DNA of 45,982 nt from Candidatus Kaiserbacteria bacterium (lineage in GTDB: Bacteria > Patescibacteriota > Minisyncoccia > Phycocordibacterales > UBA918), in assembly GCA_020428905.1 (NCBI GenBank), contig JAGQLY010000006.1, positions 1-45,982 on the forward strand, read 5' to 3'. The notes beneath the pieces were generated by a model. It had not been told where the DNA came from. It made no database searches and saw nothing but the letters and a program-made list of their open reading frames with translations. A program made the position numbers and the translations under genes. How positions within the stretch are numbered: position 1 is the first letter of the stretch; the number at the start of each line of letters is the position of its first letter. Positions 31,330 through 38,033 of this stretch are shown here, piece by piece.

Positions 31330-32598
31330 CTACACGAACGACTCTGGAACCGGAAACGCTGTCGCAAGTCCCACGACCTCCTCTTTGAGTTGCTTTTTCT
31401 TTGTCTCGTTGTTGATGTCCTTGAGCACTTCCACCATGATCTCAGCTACACGCGTCGCCTCCCCCTCGTACATACCGCGTGTGGTAATTGCCGGTGTACC
31501 GAAGCGTATCCCCGATGGATCAAGTGCTTTGCGCGTATCGTTTGCAATCATATTTTTGTTCACCGTGAGACCCACTGCATCAAGGGTAGTCTCTGCTTCT
31601 TGGCCGGTAATACCAAGCGACCCATAGACATCAGCAAGAATGAGGTGATTTGAGGTACCACCTGCAAGCATACGGATACCTGCCGCCCGAAAGACCTCTT
31701 CCATTGCTTTCGCGTTTTTCAATATCTGCAGTGCGTACTCCTTGAAACTCGGGTGCGACGCTTCACCAAACGCAACCGCCTTCCCTGCAATAAGGTGTTC
31801 GTGTGGGCCTCCCTGAAGCCCAGGGAATACTGCGCGATTTATTTTTTTTGCGATTTCCTCATCGGTATTAGTTAGAATCATCCCTCCACGAGGACCGCGA
31901 AGTGTTTTGTGTGTCGTGGTAGTAATAACATCGAACCCATCGTCGAATGGATTTCGTGCAACACCGGCAGCAATAAGTCCTGCGATATGCGCCATATCTG
32001 CCACCGTGTATGCACCTACCTCTTTCGCGATCTCGACAAACTTTGTGTACTCAAGCTCTCGACTGTACGCAGAAAAACCAGCGAGAATGATTTTTGGTTT
32101 GTGTTCGTGTGCGACTGCGCGGAGTTCATCATAATCAATCTCTCCAGTATCGACATCTTTCATTTTGTACCGAACAAAATTGAACACTTTGTTGATCGAC
32201 GTTGTTGGGTGCCCATGGGTCAGGTGTCCACCATGCTCAAGGTGCATCCCAAGGACCGTATCACCTGGCTCAAGGAGTGCGAAGTACATCGCCATGTTTG
32301 CAGGCGCGCCCGAAAGCGGCTGCACGTTTGCAAACTGACAATTGAACAGCTGCTTCGCTCGGTCAATCGCCACCTGCTCTACTGCATCGGTGAATTCTTG
32401 CCCCCCATAGTATCGTTTTCCGGGATACCCTTCAGCATACTTGTTATTAAGGATTGAGCCGTTCGCTTCGCGAACGGCTCGCGAAATGTAGTTCTCACTC
32501 GGAATCAGCTCAAGCCCTTCCGCCTCACGCTGTTCCTCTCCCATAAGGGCATCGTAGATTTCTTTGTCCTGTTTTTGAATGTAGTTGTAGTCCTGCAT
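31330..32598 (-). CDS. glyA: Serine hydroxymethyltransferase
   Basis: A PLP enzyme converting serine and tetrahydrofolate to glycine and 5,10-methylene-tetrahydrofolate, the carbon donor for thymidylate synthesis. 422 residues. Seen: ELIPSENYISRAVREANGS, KRYYGGQEFTDAVE, HGGHLTHGHPTT, the PLP-lysine motif VITTTTHKTLRGPRGG, and IRFGTPAITTRGM near the end. Full length for the family. It lies beside the thymidylate block, which would use its product. Confidence 0.97.
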   Translation of the reverse strand: MQDYNYIQKQDKEIYDALMGEEQREAEGLELIPSENYISRAVREANGSILNNKYAEGYPGKRYYGGQEFTDAVEQVAIDRAKQLFNCQFANVQPLSGAPANMAMYFALLEPGDTVLGMHLEHGGHLTHGHPTTSINKVFNFVRYKMKDVDTGEIDYDELRAVAHEHKPKIILAGFSAYSRELEYTKFVEIAKEVGAYTVADMAHIAGLIAAGVARNPFDDGFDVITTTTHKTLRGPRGGMILTNTDEEIAKKINRAVFPGLQGGPHEHLIAGKAVAFGEASHPSFKEYALQILKNAKAMEEVFRAAGIRMLAGGTSNHLILADVYGSLGITGQEAETTLDAVGLTVNKNMIANDTRKALDPSGIRFGTPAITTRGMYEGEATRVAEIMVEVLKDINNETKKKQLKEEVVGLATAFPVPESFV

Positions 32599-32657: not shown

Positions 32658-32999
32658 TTACCGATTATCGCCGTCTCCATGCAGCACACCTCGGTCTTTT
32701 CGAGACTGTAATTTTTCAATATTTCGTGAAGCAATGGTCTCAAGCTCGAGTCCAAGCTCACTTGCAAGCTGTGCGAGATACCACACTACATCACCCATCT
32801 CCTTCTCAAGATTGTCTCTGCGATCTTCCGGAATGTCACTCGCTTTTGAAACAGCGGCATCTCGCATAAGTTTCTTTACATGCTCAATAACCTCTCCAGT
32901 CTCGCCAGCAAGTCCCAGTGCCGGGTAGATAAAGTTCTCTCCAACATCCGGATAAATGGCTGTCTCACGGGCCCTTTTTTGATATTCAGAAAACTCCAT
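32658..32999 (-). CDS. MazG-like nucleoside triphosphate pyrophosphohydrolase
   Basis: 113 residues from the ATG at 32999 (MEFSEYQKRA). The all-alpha NTP-PPase pattern is clear: LGLAGETGEVIEHVKKLMRD supplies the first metal-binding acidic helix (GExxE) and KEMGDVVWYLAQLASELG the second (ExxxD). It hydrolyses an NTP or dNTP to the monophosphate and pyrophosphate; MazG relatives include dCTP and dUTP pyrophosphatases. Substrate is unknown. Its place beside tmk and a deaminase suggests a pyrimidine nucleotide. A TATACT lies six bases before the ATG, so the mRNA may be leaderless. Confidence 0.88.
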   Translation of the reverse strand: MEFSEYQKRARETAIYPDVGENFIYPALGLAGETGEVIEHVKKLMRDAAVSKASDIPEDRRDNLEKEMGDVVWYLAQLASELGLELETIASRNIEKLQSRKDRGVLHGDGDNR

Positions 33000-33005
33000 G
33001 GGACC

Positions 33006-33011
33006 AGTATA
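33006..33011 (-). promoter_or_regulatory. -10 element six bases before the MazG-like gene
   Basis: TATACT on the minus strand, separated from the ATG at 32999 by GGTCCC only. No good -35 was seen. Confidence 0.4.
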
Positions 33012-33040
33012 CCAAACCAATAAAAAGCGTATAGTTTGTC

Positions 33041-33682
33041 TTATCTTAAGAGGTTCACCGCTTGACGCAACATGCCTTCTTCACTATCAGAGGCATCTAT
33101 CGTGTGACAAGTGAAGTGTGAATCAATATGTGCCTGTGCTTTTTTCATACCCTCTCTTACTTTCTCATGAAACTCGATTGCTGCTTCATCAAAGATTGTC
33201 TTCTTTTCACCTCGACCATCAACACGAGCGAGTCCTGCGGCTGGGTCCAAATCGCAAAAAAAATAAATACATTGATACGGCCGCAATTGCTCGACTACAT
33301 ATTTGTGGAGGTCAGCGAAGATATTCTCCAACAACGTGTCCCCTAGAGCATATACCTGGTATGCGTACGAGGAAATTTCAAACCGATCACTGATTACCGT
33401 CTTGCCGCTACTTAATGCTGGCAAAATCACTCGCTCCAAGTGTTCAAAACGTGCCATATAGTGACCAAGTAGTTGGGCAGCAGGAGATAGGTGATGATCA
33501 ATATTGCTATCTTTCTCAATAAGGAGAGATCTTATTTTTTCACCCCATGGAGTACCCCCCGGCTCACGAGTACAAACAACCCGCAGACCCGTTCCTGAAA
33601 GCTCCTTCTCTAAATTTTTTACCAGCGTTGATTTACCGGCTCCCTCGCCCCCTTCGAGAATTATAAGTCTTCCTACTTCCAT
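33041..33682 (-). CDS. tmk: Thymidylate kinase
   Basis: Phosphorylates dTMP to dTDP. 213 residues. P-loop EGGEGAGKSTLVKNLEKEL at the start, DR(F) motif VISDRFEISSYAYQ, and LID-type region DGRGEKKTIFDEA with basic residues. The start overlaps the end of the deaminase gene by ten bases, so the two are translated together. It is the last kinase needed for any route to dTTP, and fits the deaminase, thymidylate synthase family and DHFR genes next to it. Confidence 0.95.
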   Translation of the reverse strand: MEVGRLIILEGGEGAGKSTLVKNLEKELSGTGLRVVCTREPGGTPWGEKIRSLLIEKDSNIDHHLSPAAQLLGHYMARFEHLERVILPALSSGKTVISDRFEISSYAYQVYALGDTLLENIFADLHKYVVEQLRPYQCIYFFCDLDPAAGLARVDGRGEKKTIFDEAAIEFHEKVREGMKKAQAHIDSHFTCHTIDASDSEEGMLRQAVNLLR

Positions 33683-34206
33683 GATTCATCTACATCGTCA
33701 AACTGATGGTTGACGATATTACGTTCACTTTCTTTATTAAAAAGCTCTTCACTTCCTTCCGCAAGATACACATGCTGTATCCCAGCGTCCACCATACTGT
33801 CCCAGCACGGCTCGCAACACCACCAATGCCCCCACAGATATAAATCTGCACCTTCTATATCCTGACCCTTAGAAAGAGCGTCGGCAATAGCCCGAGGCTC
33901 ACTGTGGTTTTTAGGATGACACCCTTCACATTTATCATAATCTGTGCCCGTTTTGCTACCCAGTTTTTTTCGTTCACATTCATTGTTTTCATGATAGTCA
34001 CTACCGTTGGCACCAAATCCAACGATTTCGCCCTCTACTACCACCACAGAACCTGTGGGCATGTGCCTGTCTAAAGAATGTTCAAAGGCAAACCTCTTAG
34101 CCGCCTGAATAAATTCATTATTCATAGGCACATATTCTATCTTTCGTCCCTCAGGAATATAGGGATATTCGATCGGTTTCTTTTTGAGCCCTTCGCCTCC
34201 TTCCAT
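33673..34206 (-). CDS. Cytidine/deoxycytidylate deaminase family protein (zinc)
   Basis: 177 residues from the ATG at 34206; the upstream part of the frame lies in the divergent promoter region. The zinc deaminase site is intact: HSEPRAIADAL at 101-111 (His101 ligand, Glu103 proton shuttle) and CCEPC at 130-134 (Cys131 and Cys134 ligands), followed by SMVDAGIQHVYL. Extra cysteines (ECERKK, KCEGCHP at about 77-97) may bind a second zinc, as in dCMP deaminases. Likely substrate is dCMP or a 5-substituted dCMP, giving dUMP or dTMP. It overlaps tmk and is divergent from the thymidylate synthase family gene. Confidence 0.85.
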   Translation of the reverse strand: MEGGEGLKKKPIEYPYIPEGRKIEYVPMNNEFIQAAKRFAFEHSLDRHMPTGSVVVVEGEIVGFGANGSDYHENNECERKKLGSKTGTDYDKCEGCHPKNHSEPRAIADALSKGQDIEGADLYLWGHWWCCEPCWDSMVDAGIQHVYLAEGSEELFNKESERNIVNHQFDDVDESWK

Positions 34207-34286
34207 ACAATCAATGCTTAACTGATTTTGCGAATTGTACCACACAAATACAAGTAACGGAGTCTGTTCACCTTCTCTGATTCCTG

Positions 34287-34292
34287 TAAAAT
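34287..34292 (+). promoter_or_regulatory. -10 element six bases before the thymidylate synthase family gene
   Basis: TAAAAT, then TACACC, then ATG at 34299. No Shine-Dalgarno is visible, which fits a leaderless mRNA. The -35 is weak. Confidence 0.4.
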
Positions 34293-34298
34293 TACACC

Positions 34299-35135
34299 AT
34301 GAGCCGTTTTGATGAAATTTACCAAAACACACTAGAAAATATCCTCGAAAATGGTATCCGGGAAGTGAATGAACGCACCGGGCATGAGACAGCAACCCTT
34401 CCAGGGGTGAGCTTTAGTATCGATATTGAAAAGGAAGGTTTTCCGCTCCTTTCTCTTAGAAAGATTCCGGTACAGATGTTTGTTGCGGAACAAGTATGGT
34501 TTATTGCTGGCCTTCGGAAGCCGGGCGATTTTTTGCGAGAATATACAAAGATTTGGGATGGTTTTACAAACCCCGGAGACACTGTCACGGTTGCCTATGG
34601 GTACCGCTGGAGACACCATTTCGGGCGCGACCAACTTGGAGACTTGGTACAACTGCTTGAGAATGAACCAAGCTCAAGACATGGTGTTGTGCTTGCATGG
34701 GACCCGGGCAGCGATGGCCTAGGGGGGACGAAACGAGCAAATGTTCCCTGCCCTTTTGCCTTTACCGTCAATATTGTTGGGGGGAAACTTCACCTTCACA
34801 ATATTGTCCGCTCTAACGACATGATGCTCGGCAACCCTGCTGATGTTGCAGGTTTTGCACTTTTGCAATGTATCCTTGCCCAGAGACTCGGCGTGCGACC
34901 AGGAATATATACTCACTCAATCTCTAATGCCCATATATACGACATCCATTACGAAGCTGCACGGGAAGTTATTAGTCGTAAGAGTACACAGAAAGCAATT
35001 ACACTTCAGTTACCCCCAAATACCTTTATACGCTCTGAAAAGAAAGATGGTGCACTTGTGGAGGAAATTATGGAAGATATCATGAAACAATATACACCCC
35101 TCGATCCAATTAAGGGCATTAAAATAGTATTGTAA
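34299..35135 (+). CDS. thyA: Thymidylate synthase family protein with Asp at the base-recognition position
   Basis: 278 residues, methylene-tetrahydrofolate-dependent pyrimidine C5 methylase fold. Seen: ERTGHE (Arg26), AEQVWFIAG (Glu64), VAYGYRWR (Tyr100), NEPSSRHGVV, the nucleophile in NVPCPFAF (Cys151), IVRSNDMMLGNPADVAGFAL and NAHIYDIH (His212, Tyr214). The E. coli motif LGLPFNIASYA aligns without gaps to LGNPADVAGFA, so the Asn that reads uracil (Asn177 in E. coli) is Asp182 here. T4 dCMP hydroxymethylase also has Asp there and also has the RSND string. An adjacent DHFR suggests reductive methylation rather than hydroxymethylation. It is either a dCMP methylase or an unusual dUMP enzyme. 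First gene of a three-gene unit. Confidence 0.9.
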   Translation: MSRFDEIYQNTLENILENGIREVNERTGHETATLPGVSFSIDIEKEGFPLLSLRKIPVQMFVAEQVWFIAGLRKPGDFLREYTKIWDGFTNPGDTVTVAYGYRWRHHFGRDQLGDLVQLLENEPSSRHGVVLAWDPGSDGLGGTKRANVPCPFAFTVNIVGGKLHLHNIVRSNDMMLGNPADVAGFALLQCILAQRLGVRPGIYTHSISNAHIYDIHYEAAREVISRKSTQKAITLQLPPNTFIRSEKKDGALVEEIMEDIMKQYTPLDPIKGIKIVL

Positions 35136-35139
35136 AAAT

Positions 35140-35781
35140 ATGTCAGTATTAACACAGCAGGAAATATTGGAACGAGTCAAAGCAGGTGATATTGCTATTG
35201 AACCCGGCATCGATGTGTTCCAATTACAAGCACACTCTGTCGATCTGCGTCTCGGGTTCACATTCATGATTCCTAAACACTACGTTATGACCAAAGAGGG
35301 TCGCGAGGCGTTGCGAATCGACCCTCTTCGAAATCATGGTCCTGAGTATTTTGATGTAATAGAGCTTGAGCAAGGACAATATTTTGAACTTTTGCCAGGA
35401 GAACATGTTTTGGTGTCTTCTCTGGAGAATATAAAAGTACCAAATGATCTGATGGCGATACTATACCCACGCTCTTCCGTAAACAGAAAAGGCTTGTCTG
35501 TGGACCTAACTGGTATTATCGACTCCGGTTACGAAGGTGTATTGACTCTGCCGGTGCGGAATAACACAGCATCTCAAATTATCCGCCTATATCCAGGAGA
35601 GCGATTTTGCCAGGTTGTATTTGAAAAACTTTCACACGAGGTAGAAGCCCGAAAAAGTCGGTGGCACAAGAAAGATGTCGTGGAAAAGGGCGAACAAGAA
35701 AAGAGTGACGAAATGGAGTTGGTTCTTCAGGGGAAGATACGGGAGCTCAAAAAAGATTTTGCAGTAAAGAAAGATGTTTAA
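35140..35781 (+). CDS. dcd: dCTP deaminase/dUTPase family protein lacking the deaminase glutamate
   Basis: 213 residues of the trimeric dUTPase/Dcd fold. Seen: HSVDLRLGFTF, LLPGEHVLVSSLENIKVP, YPRSSVNRKGLS (phosphate-binding Ser/Arg), GIIDSGYEGVLTLPV and YPGERFCQVVFEKL. The Asp that activates water in dUTPases (Asp128 in IIDSG) is kept. The Glu required for deamination (E. coli Glu138, in the VLEF/ITLE strand) is Pro138 here. The usual C-terminal Y.GQ.GP segment is replaced by a Lys/Glu-rich tail. It is therefore more likely a dUTP or dCTP pyrophosphatase than a deaminase, although I name the symbol by family. It is four bases after the thymidylate synthase family gene and overlaps folA by eight. 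Confidence 0.85.
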   Translation: MSVLTQQEILERVKAGDIAIEPGIDVFQLQAHSVDLRLGFTFMIPKHYVMTKEGREALRIDPLRNHGPEYFDVIELEQGQYFELLPGEHVLVSSLENIKVPNDLMAILYPRSSVNRKGLSVDLTGIIDSGYEGVLTLPVRNNTASQIIRLYPGERFCQVVFEKLSHEVEARKSRWHKKDVVEKGEQEKSDEMELVLQGKIRELKKDFAVKKDV

Positions 35782-36280
35782 AGGGGATGTTAAAAAACCG
35801 CGACTATCAACCATTGCGGCGATTGGAGAAAATCGTGAGCTTGGCAAGAAAAACGAGCTTATTTGGCGGATTCGAGACGACCTAAAGCGTGTCAAAGACC
35901 TAACAACCGGCCACCCAATCATCATGGGACAGAAAACCTATGAATCGATTGGTCGCCCCCTCCCCAACCGAACAAACATCGTCCTCACCCAAGACCCAGA
36001 CTATCGGCCAGAAGGGTGCGTGATGGCCCTCTCACTAGAAGAGGCTCTTTCAAAAGCTCAGGAAGTTGAAGACGAGGAGATTTTCATCTTCGGAGGAGCA
36101 TATGTCTACACCCAAACGATCGACATGGTAGACAGACTCTATCTCACCCGTATTCATGACACTGACCCTAATGCTGATGCTTTCTTTCCAGAGTACGCTG
36201 CGTTTACGAAAGTAATCGCGCAAGAGTTGCGAGACCAGGATGGACTGGAATACGAGTGGCTAACGCTAGAGCGGGAATAG
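35774..36280 (+). CDS. folA: Dihydrofolate reductase
   Basis: Reduces dihydrofolate to tetrahydrofolate with NADPH. 168 residues. Seen: LSTIAAIGENRELGKKNELIW, then DDLKRVKDLTTGHPIIMGQKTYESIGRPLPNR (shown in part; catalytic Asp of the DDL segment), NIVLTQ, the IFIFGGAYVYTQ cofactor loop and DRLYLTRI. The start overlaps the upstream gene by eight bases. Its presence in the same unit implies that the thymidylate synthase family enzyme oxidises folate, as a methylase does. Confidence 0.95.
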   Translation: MFKGDVKKPRLSTIAAIGENRELGKKNELIWRIRDDLKRVKDLTTGHPIIMGQKTYESIGRPLPNRTNIVLTQDPDYRPEGCVMALSLEEALSKAQEVEDEEIFIFGGAYVYTQTIDMVDRLYLTRIHDTDPNADAFFPEYAAFTKVIAQELRDQDGLEYEWLTLERE

Positions 36281-36332: not shown

Positions 36333-36758
36333 TCAGTTCTTCACATGTACACCCATCGAACGACAGGTTCCTTCGATGATTTTCATTGCAGCGTCAATGT
36401 CATTTGCGGAAAGGTCCTGCATTTTTTCTTCGGCAATCTCGCGAATTTGTGCGCGAGTAATGTCGCCAACCTTCGATAAGACATTTTTGCCTGACCCCTT
36501 GTCCTTACCGATCTTCTTCAAGATGAGTCGTGATGCCGGTGACGTCTTGGTAATGAAATCAAAGCTTCGATCTTCGTACACGGTAATCTCTACCGGAACC
36601 ACTTCGCCCATTCGCTCTCGTGTTTTTTCGTTGAACTGGTTGACGAATTCACCAATGTTAATACCCGCCTGACCAAGCACCGGACCAAGTGGTGGCGCTG
36701 GGGTAGCTTTGCCACCAACCGCCTGCACCTTGAGTTTTTTTAATATTTGTTTTGCCAT
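36333..36758 (-). CDS. rplK: Ribosomal protein uL11
   Basis: GTPase-centre protein of the large subunit. 141 residues with [21 protein letters not shown] (shown in part), [17 protein letters not shown], then the C-terminal rRNA-binding domain ([54 protein letters not shown]). It has its own promoter, and a terminator follows at once. rplA (L1), nearly always the next gene in bacteria, is absent here. The 65-nt leader can fold around AGCCGTTCC/GGAACGGCT. Confidence 0.97.
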
Positions 36759-36829
36759 CCTAAATGTTGCTTATAGATTGTGATGTGTAAGCCGTTCCAT
36801 AGCCAGCTCGACACAGTAGAAGCCCGCTG

Positions 36830-36858
36830 ATAGTACAGAAAACGGATTAGTTTTGCAA
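36830..36858 (-). promoter_or_regulatory. rplK promoter
   Basis: TTGCAA (36853-36858), 17-nt spacer, TACTAT (36830-36835) on the minus strand, about 72 nt before the ATG. Confidence 0.65.
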
Positions 36859-36874
36859 GTATATAAAATAAATC

Positions 36875-37405
36875 TTACTCTTTCGCCTCAAAGCTGAACG
36901 TGACGCTTTTTAATCCCTCTTCACCATACATCTCCTTGATTCTGCTCATGACTGATTTAATTGCGCCAAAGAGCTCATGTGCCATGTGACTTTCGGCACC
37001 CGTTTTTTCCACACTAATCACCCCAATAGATGTCCCGTCCACAAAACACTCCAATATCCCACAACGGCGCTTGGTCGGGATCGACCACAACATGTGTTTC
37101 TCGTTTTCCGATAGTGCAGACGCCTCCAGGTATGTCTTAAAACCATTGAGTGACGCTTCTTCATCTCGTAATCGTTCAATTATCCGAGCAAACTCACTCA
37201 CCGGAATACCCCCCCTTTCAAGCTTCTGCATCTTTTCAGCAAGTGCAATCACTGTTCTGTCTGTGGCGGGTTTATCAGCCGTACCAAGTAACAGTTCGTA
37301 TGCTTCCCATGCCTGACTCGCAGTTACCTCTAAACCTCGCAAGAACTCGACAAACCTCTCGGACTGTTTCCCAAGATTCGCTGACTCAAAAGAAGACAAA
37401 CTCAT
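36875..37405 (-). CDS. Hypothetical soluble protein between nusG and rplK
   Basis: 176 residues, not recognised. The first 110 are helical and charged (RFVEFLRGLEVTASQAWEAYE, LAEKMQKLERGGI, FARIIERLRDEEASL). The end is a small alpha/beta segment (KRRCGILECFVDGTSIGVISVEKTG). No signal peptide or membrane span. It has its own extended -10 promoter and lies between the secE-nusG and rplK units in the same direction. Confidence 0.6.
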   Translation of the reverse strand: MSLSSFESANLGKQSERFVEFLRGLEVTASQAWEAYELLLGTADKPATDRTVIALAEKMQKLERGGIPVSEFARIIERLRDEEASLNGFKTYLEASALSENEKHMLWSIPTKRRCGILECFVDGTSIGVISVEKTGAESHMAHELFGAIKSVMSRIKEMYGEEGLKSVTFSFEAKE

Positions 37406-37413
37406 ACGGCTGT

Positions 37414-37419
37414 ATTATA
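37414..37419 (-). promoter_or_regulatory. Extended -10 promoter of the 176-residue protein gene
   Basis: TGG-TATAAT on the minus strand, a perfect -10 hexamer with a TGn extension, eight bases before the ATG at 37405. Confidence 0.55.
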
Positions 37420-37439
37420 CCAAAGAAAGCACGTAGCGA

Positions 37440-37464
37440 AAAAGACCCCACAGGGGTCTTTTTG
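37440..37464 (-). terminator. Terminator after nusG
   Basis: AAAAAGACCCC/GGGGTCTTTTT hairpin about 25 nt after the nusG stop, symmetrical in both directions. Confidence 0.9.
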
Positions 37465-37487
37465 TCCGCCTATAAAACGCGAAGTGT

Positions 37488-38033
37488 CTACACCTTCTTA
37501 ACTTGCAAGAAATCAAGCTCAACCGGTGTCTCTCGTCCAAACATAGAGACAAGTACCTTGACCTTACCGCGCTCTTCGTCGATTTCGCCCACCTTGCCCT
37601 CAAGTTCCTTGAACGGACCGTCGGTAATGATGACCATATCTTCCGGGGAGAGGTCCATGTGGTGCTTCGGCGCATCGTCCTGCATACGGTTCATGAGTGC
37701 GTCGAGCTCATCTTGGCGAAGCGGTACCGGCTGCGTACCACTACCAACAAATCCAGTCACTCGTGGCGTATTGCGCACCACGTACCACGAATCATCAGTT
37801 ACAATCATTTCCACGAGAACGTACCCCGGGTACACTCGCTCTTCCTCGGTGACGCGCTTTCCTCCTTTTACACGAATCTTCTTTTCAGTTGGAACCACGA
37901 CATCAAAAATGCGATCCTGCATACCAAGAGATTCAATACGCTGCTTCAAATTACGCGCAACCGCGTTTTCATATCCTGAGTAGGTGTGAATTGCATACCA
38001 TTGACGTTCGCCGCCTGTTTGTTGTTTTGCCAT
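37488..38033 (-). CDS. nusG: Transcription antitermination factor NusG
   Basis: Binds RNA polymerase and couples it to the ribosome. 181 residues. The NGN domain starts WYAIHTYSGYENAVARNLKQR and carries EERVYPGYVLVEMI, DDSWYVVRNTPRVTGFVG. The KOW domain has EDMVIITDGPFKELEGKVGEID (shown in part) and ends FGRETPVELDFLQVKK. Standard length. It follows secE, the normal order. Confidence 0.97.
   Translation of the reverse strand: MAKQQTGGERQWYAIHTYSGYENAVARNLKQRIESLGMQDRIFDVVVPTEKKIRVKGGKRVTEEERVYPGYVLVEMIVTDDSWYVVRNTPRVTGFVGSGTQPVPLRQDELDALMNRMQDDAPKHHMDLSPEDMVIITDGPFKELEGKVGEIDEERGKVKVLVSMFGRETPVELDFLQVKKV

Follow-up and report, generated by a model that had tools for sequence, protein, structure and literature searches.

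The question raised by this locus is whether a thymidylate synthase (TS)-family protein, here called TS-D, methylates dUMP, as canonical ThyA does, or dCMP. TS-D is encoded in a window of 45,982 nucleotides (the whole stretch of DNA analysed) from a 669-kb Candidatus Kaiserbacteria genome, in which it is the single TS. A first-pass annotation of the sequence had proposed that Asp182 of TS-D aligns without gaps to the uracil-reading Asn177 of E. coli ThyA. Alignments with PDB sequences and with MAFFT agreed on this placement, with no gap nearby; profile alignments together with invariance across relatives ruled out chance or misalignment as the source of this residue. Features of the locus are collected in Table 1, and active-site positions are given below in E. 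coli numbering unless a TS-D residue is named.

Table 1. Features of the TS-D locus, with coordinates in the window.
Feature	Coordinates	Strand	Evidence
Serine hydroxymethyltransferase (SHMT); supplies methylene-THF	31330..32598	-	PF00464 505 bits; SHMT linked in 12 of 36 loci
MazG-like nucleotide pyrophosphohydrolase; possible dCTP or 5-methyl-dCTP diphosphatase (predicted)	32658..33020	-	PF03819 46.3 bits
Thymidylate kinase	33041..33682	-	PF02223; TIGR00041 123.9 bits
DCMPD, divergent dCMP-deaminase-like protein, 177 aa (likely ATG at 34206); predicted 5-methyl-dCMP to dTMP	33673..34206	-	PF00383 36.4 bits; zinc ligands
Divergent intergenic region between deaminase and TS-D, 92 bp	34207..34298	.	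Sequence; head-to-head arrangement recurs in many loci
TS-D, TS-family protein, 278 aa; predicted dCMP C5-methylase	34299..35135	+	PF00303, alignments, clade, AF2 model
Cys151 and Pro152 codons (E. coli Cys146-His147; Pro replaces His147)	34749..34754	+	Alignment; position 147 flagged in PMC8670742
Asp182 codon GAT (E. coli Asn177 position)	34842..34844	+	PDB sequence alignments, MAFFT
DCD-P, dCTP-deaminase-like, catalytic Glu missing; predicted dNTP diphosphatase (dCTP or dUTP)	35140..35781	+	PF22769 123.4 bits, TIGR02274 116.1 bits
Pro138 codon of DCD-P (catalytic Glu138 position of E. coli Dcd)	35551..35553	+	Alignment
Dihydrofolate reductase (DHFR); recycles DHF from reductive methylation	35774..36280	+	PF00186 164 bits; within 6 kb of TS-D in 31 of 36 loci

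Membership of TS-D in the TS family is clear, as it scored 170.8 bits against the PF00303 profile (cut-off 24.3), has an invariant Cys151 and gave an AF2 model (pLDDT 87) whose PDB matches were TSs (TM ~0.8); the structure models of the locus proteins speak to fold level only, substrate choice being beyond their reach. TS-D shares with canonical, dUMP-methylating ThyA (PF00303) the fold and the catalytic Cys, Glu, Tyr, Arg and His, and the residues that had been listed as kept (Glu64, Tyr100, Cys151, Arg171, His212 and Tyr214) were all present and invariant in the clade. Unlike canonical ThyA, to which its identity is about 33% or less, TS-D is altered not only at Asn177 but also at His147 (Pro), Gln165 (Val) and Asp205 (Asn), with a further active-site change at Trp83 (Phe). 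It therefore lacks the Asn177 and His147 pair of dUMP-specific ThyA and instead carries the combination of Asp177 and an altered position 147 that marks Xp12-type dCMP methylases, these being the top two sites separating dCMP-type from dUMP-type TSs (PMC8670742). Asp at the 177 site is tied to cytosine reading, as with Asp179 of the T4 enzyme (PMC6400193), and the substitution Asn177Asp makes TS prefer dCMP over dUMP (literature cited in PMC8670742). A dCMP-type enzyme is thus the best reading of TS-D, and one that its sequence supports.

Asp182 proved to be a feature of a clade, which the first-pass annotation had left to an alignment with relatives. A database scan recovered 31 loci whose TSs share 54–77% identity with the window protein; the next matches fell to about 33%. 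The TS-D clade comprises ~36 genomes (36 records were counted, of which G269 and G454, with their identical coordinates, probably represent a single genome), mainly Patescibacteria, tiny and for the most part uncultured bacteria (Pacebacteria, Vogelbacteria, Nomurabacteria, Doudnabacteria, Harrisonbacteria, Falkowbacteria, Moranbacteria, Woesebacteria and others) plus two Chloroflexota bins, with TSs 54–77% identical to that of the window. Every member carries Asp177, has Pro or Leu at 147, lacks Gln165 and conserves the C-terminal tail. The clade was found in 7 of the 384 genomes surveyed in the window genome's class, where 131 TS genomes could be typed as 9 Asp and 122 Asn. Within the window genome's family, a different TS type was carried by 33 of 35 TS-bearing genomes, the full-length ones all being Asn, and the Asp type occurred only in the window genome and G046. 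Two of the nine Asp TSs, from G378 (L237) and G074 (L236), belong to separate lineages and keep His147, each with a deaminase gene on the same stretch; because Asp occurs with His147 there, Asp need not mark one phenotype. TS-D members were also seen on two viral contigs, L127 (60% identity to the window protein) and L128 (53%), with a dUTPase nearby, and L128 additionally encodes a conventional dCMP deaminase.

The closest annotated phage proteins to TS-D, at about 35% identity, come from Bradleyvirinae and similar siphoviruses. In the tree, the TS-D clade and six phages (three of them Bradleyvirinae) formed a common clade joined at 99/93 support. Asp177 and Pro147 also occur in these phage relatives, several of which have the gene order MazG, TS, dCMP deaminase and DHFR. 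Xp12, represented in our comparison by AXL1 of the same genus, belongs to the Bradleyvirinae (PMC11946847); a TS-family dCMP methylase is known from it (PMC5175136), its DNA contains 5-methylcytosine in place of every cytosine (PMC7653180), and, independently of the host, its deaminase turns 5-methyl-dCTP into dTTP (PMC12088426). The order in which methylation precedes deamination, published for Xp12 as a new thymidylate biosynthesis, is the one we propose for bacteria with TS-D. These bacteria differ from Xp12, in which the deaminase acts on the triphosphate and 5-methylcytosine replaces all cytosine in phage DNA. They also differ from Xp12-type phages in that their deaminase belongs to another, divergent family at about 20% identity, in that DCD-P replaces or supplements MazG, and in that TS-D is the only TS of the cell.

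The last of these points bears on whether 5-methyl-dCMP (or hydroxymethyl-dCMP) might instead be phosphorylated and built into DNA, besides or in place of serving as a dTMP precursor. Such a role is served by the TS homologues of Xp12 and T4 (PMC7653180, PMC8670742), and MetaGPA found cytosine-modified phage contigs with co-occurring TS, deaminase and MazG-like genes (PMC8670742); the presence of TS-D members on the two viral contigs points the same way. TS-D was, however, the sole TS in nearly all TS-D genomes, and ThyX was found in none of the 36, including that of the window. Thymidine kinase was absent from the window genome and from most of the others, so that a search of the window genome for a second conventional thymidylate source, be it another TS, ThyX or thymidine kinase, ended without a candidate. 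It follows that dTMP must pass through TS-D there, unless thymidine nucleotides are imported, and since dTMP has no other possible de novo source in this genome, DNA modification cannot be the sole role of TS-D. The locus is moreover chromosomal housekeeping DNA beside rplK and nusG, with a thymidylate kinase; no DNA-modification partner, such as a glycosyl- or carbamoyl-transferase, was seen near it, and TS-D keeps a C-terminal tail that the T4-type hydroxymethylase lacks. We consider DNA modification very unlikely as an account of TS-D.

The tail also bears on the type of reaction. The first-pass annotation had likened TS-D to T4 gp42, the dCMP hydroxymethylase, by the RSND string and by Asp at the 177 position. 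Both are indeed found in gp42. RSND also turned up, however, in several Asn-type TSs from the window genome's class; it is therefore not diagnostic, and was rejected as a marker of dCMP use. In addition, gp42 is very distant from TS-D, on the longest branch in the tree, lacks the TS C-terminal tail (PMC6400193) and does not use THF as its reductant, whereas the TS-D tail (IKGLKIVL) is conserved. Within 6 kb of TS-D, the 36 loci contained DHFR (31), a DCD-like gene (30), the divergent deaminase (30) and thymidylate kinase (22). Only reductive methylation, and not hydroxymethylation, produces DHF. Methylation is therefore favoured over T4-like hydroxymethylation, on the grounds of the conserved tail and the DHFR linkage. 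Of the original dCMP-type reading, then, the methylase side gained support from the clade, position 147 and the kinship with Xp12, while the hydroxymethylase side came out weaker.

In the window, SHMT, MazG, thymidylate kinase and the deaminase lie on the minus strand and are followed, on the plus strand, by TS-D, the DCD-like protein and DHFR. It is these neighbours, overlooked in the first-pass annotation, that extend the residue change to a hypothesis about a pathway. The cassette adjoins rplK and nusG both in the window (36333–38033) and in 22 of the 36 loci, across different candidate phyla. The DCD-like protein, DCD-P, matches the dCTP deaminase family TIGR02274 above cut-off, as a dCTP deaminase or bifunctional DCD-DUT would, but differs from both in that the catalytic Glu138 of E. 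coli Dcd is replaced by Pro. This position was Pro in 30/30 clade loci and Glu in 15/15 DCDs from Asn-TS genomes, and dCTP deamination by DCD-P is therefore not expected. In the class survey, the DCD-P subfamily was confined to exactly four genomes, all with TS-D. DCD-P could be a dUTPase by analogy with an archaeal (Pyrococcus) protein that was annotated as DCD and is a dUTPase (PMC5122711). A true dUTPase was also present in ten TS-D clusters.

The mixture of dUTPases with dCMP-type genes in these clusters would fit a TS-D of broad specificity, acting in vivo on dCMP as well as dUMP, with both reaction orders running in parallel. Engineered Asn177 mutants of TS can act on both substrates. 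The Asp found throughout the clade and the accompanying changes at 147 and 165 suggest a specialised pocket, and we regard such dual use as highly improbable.

The deaminase, DCMPD, resembles dCMP deaminases (T4 cd, human DCTD) in its PF00383 domain and in its zinc ligands HxE and CxxC, which are invariant (H101, E103, C131 and C134). It differs from them in reading GANG in place of the allosteric G(Y/W)N(A/G) motif, in an unusual GHWWCCxPCW active-site segment and in an extra conserved Cys; its best fold match was T4 dCMP deaminase, at a TM of only 0.43. E. coli is not known to have a dCMP deaminase. DCMPD was present in 32 of the 36 TS-D genomes, and in 8/9 Asp-TS genomes compared to 1/122 Asn-TS genomes of the class (Fisher p 4.6e-11, not corrected for kinship). 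In G378, with its independent Asp TS, a DCMPD homologue lies 2.7 kb away. A conventional dCMP deaminase was sought elsewhere in the window genome (G000), where the second PF00383 protein resembles guanine deaminases.

DCMPD-family proteins also occur without TS-D, as stand-alone genes, in L111, L112, L113, L114 and L115. Of the genomes concerned, G253, G081 and G201 encode ThyX; G342 lacks both TS and ThyX and encodes a thymidine kinase; and the TS of G430 is a short Asn-type protein of 222 aa. Because dUMP must be the product where ThyX is present, the family is not restricted to 5-methyl-dCMP and presumably can make dUMP, which weakens DCMPD as a strict marker of 5-methyl-dCMP. Three TS-D genomes lack DCMPD, and two of them lack any PF00383 protein. 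Exactly these three (apart from one MAG whose TS is at a contig edge) carry a Cys-less TS-like ORF of 354–376 aa next to or near DCD-P (L050:10005-11069, L064:9550-10623 and L063:9748-10878), which may possibly replace the deaminase.

The coexistence of DCMPD relatives with ThyX, the possible dUTPase activity of DCD-P and the three deaminase-less TS-D genomes make the ordinary order of reactions the main rival. DCMPD would then convert dCMP to dUMP, DCD-P would convert dUTP to dUMP, and TS-D would methylate dUMP to dTMP despite Asp177. The gene set is complete either way, and DCD-P aligns with dUTPases, much as in the archaeal case. This order has to contend with the documented effect of Asp at the 177 site, in TS and in T4 alike, with a position 147 that is changed as well and invariantly non-His in the clade, and with a sister group of TS-D that contains phages of the same subfamily as Xp12, the source of a known dCMP methylase. 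We judge it unlikely.

Overall, TS-D probably methylates dCMP to 5-methyl-dCMP, from which the deaminase then gives dTMP; substrates and reaction order are here deduced from directly observed residues, clade membership, gene linkage and the lack of another thymidylate source in the window genome. The route would begin with conversion of dCTP to dCMP by the Glu-less DCD-P and/or the MazG protein. TS-D, through Cys151 and with Asp182 reading and protonating cytosine N3, would convert dCMP to 5-methyl-dCMP and DHF, methylene-THF donating the methylene plus hydride. DCMPD, encoded head-to-head with TS-D, would convert 5-methyl-dCMP to dTMP, a step consistent with the acceptance of 5-methyl-dCMP by ordinary dCMP deaminases (PMC12088426), and the pathway would be completed by thymidylate kinase and DHFR, whose genes are linked to that of TS-D. 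More tentatively, and at somewhat less than an even chance, cellular bacteria may make all their thymidylate without dUMP, by way of a deaminase-dead DCD-P (dCTP to dCMP), TS-D and a dedicated deaminase, the genes having spread across Patescibacteria as a cassette.

The methylate-then-deaminate order is so far reported only for a phage, and a search of open-access papers returned no description of cellular bacteria that have it as their sole route. dUMP has been called the obligate precursor of de novo dTTP (PMC5519681), a rule that a dCMP-type enzyme as the sole TS of cells would break, if true. The Xp12 phage route would then work as housekeeping metabolism, and the names ThyA and dCTP deaminase, given to many genes of Patescibacteria, would be misnomers.
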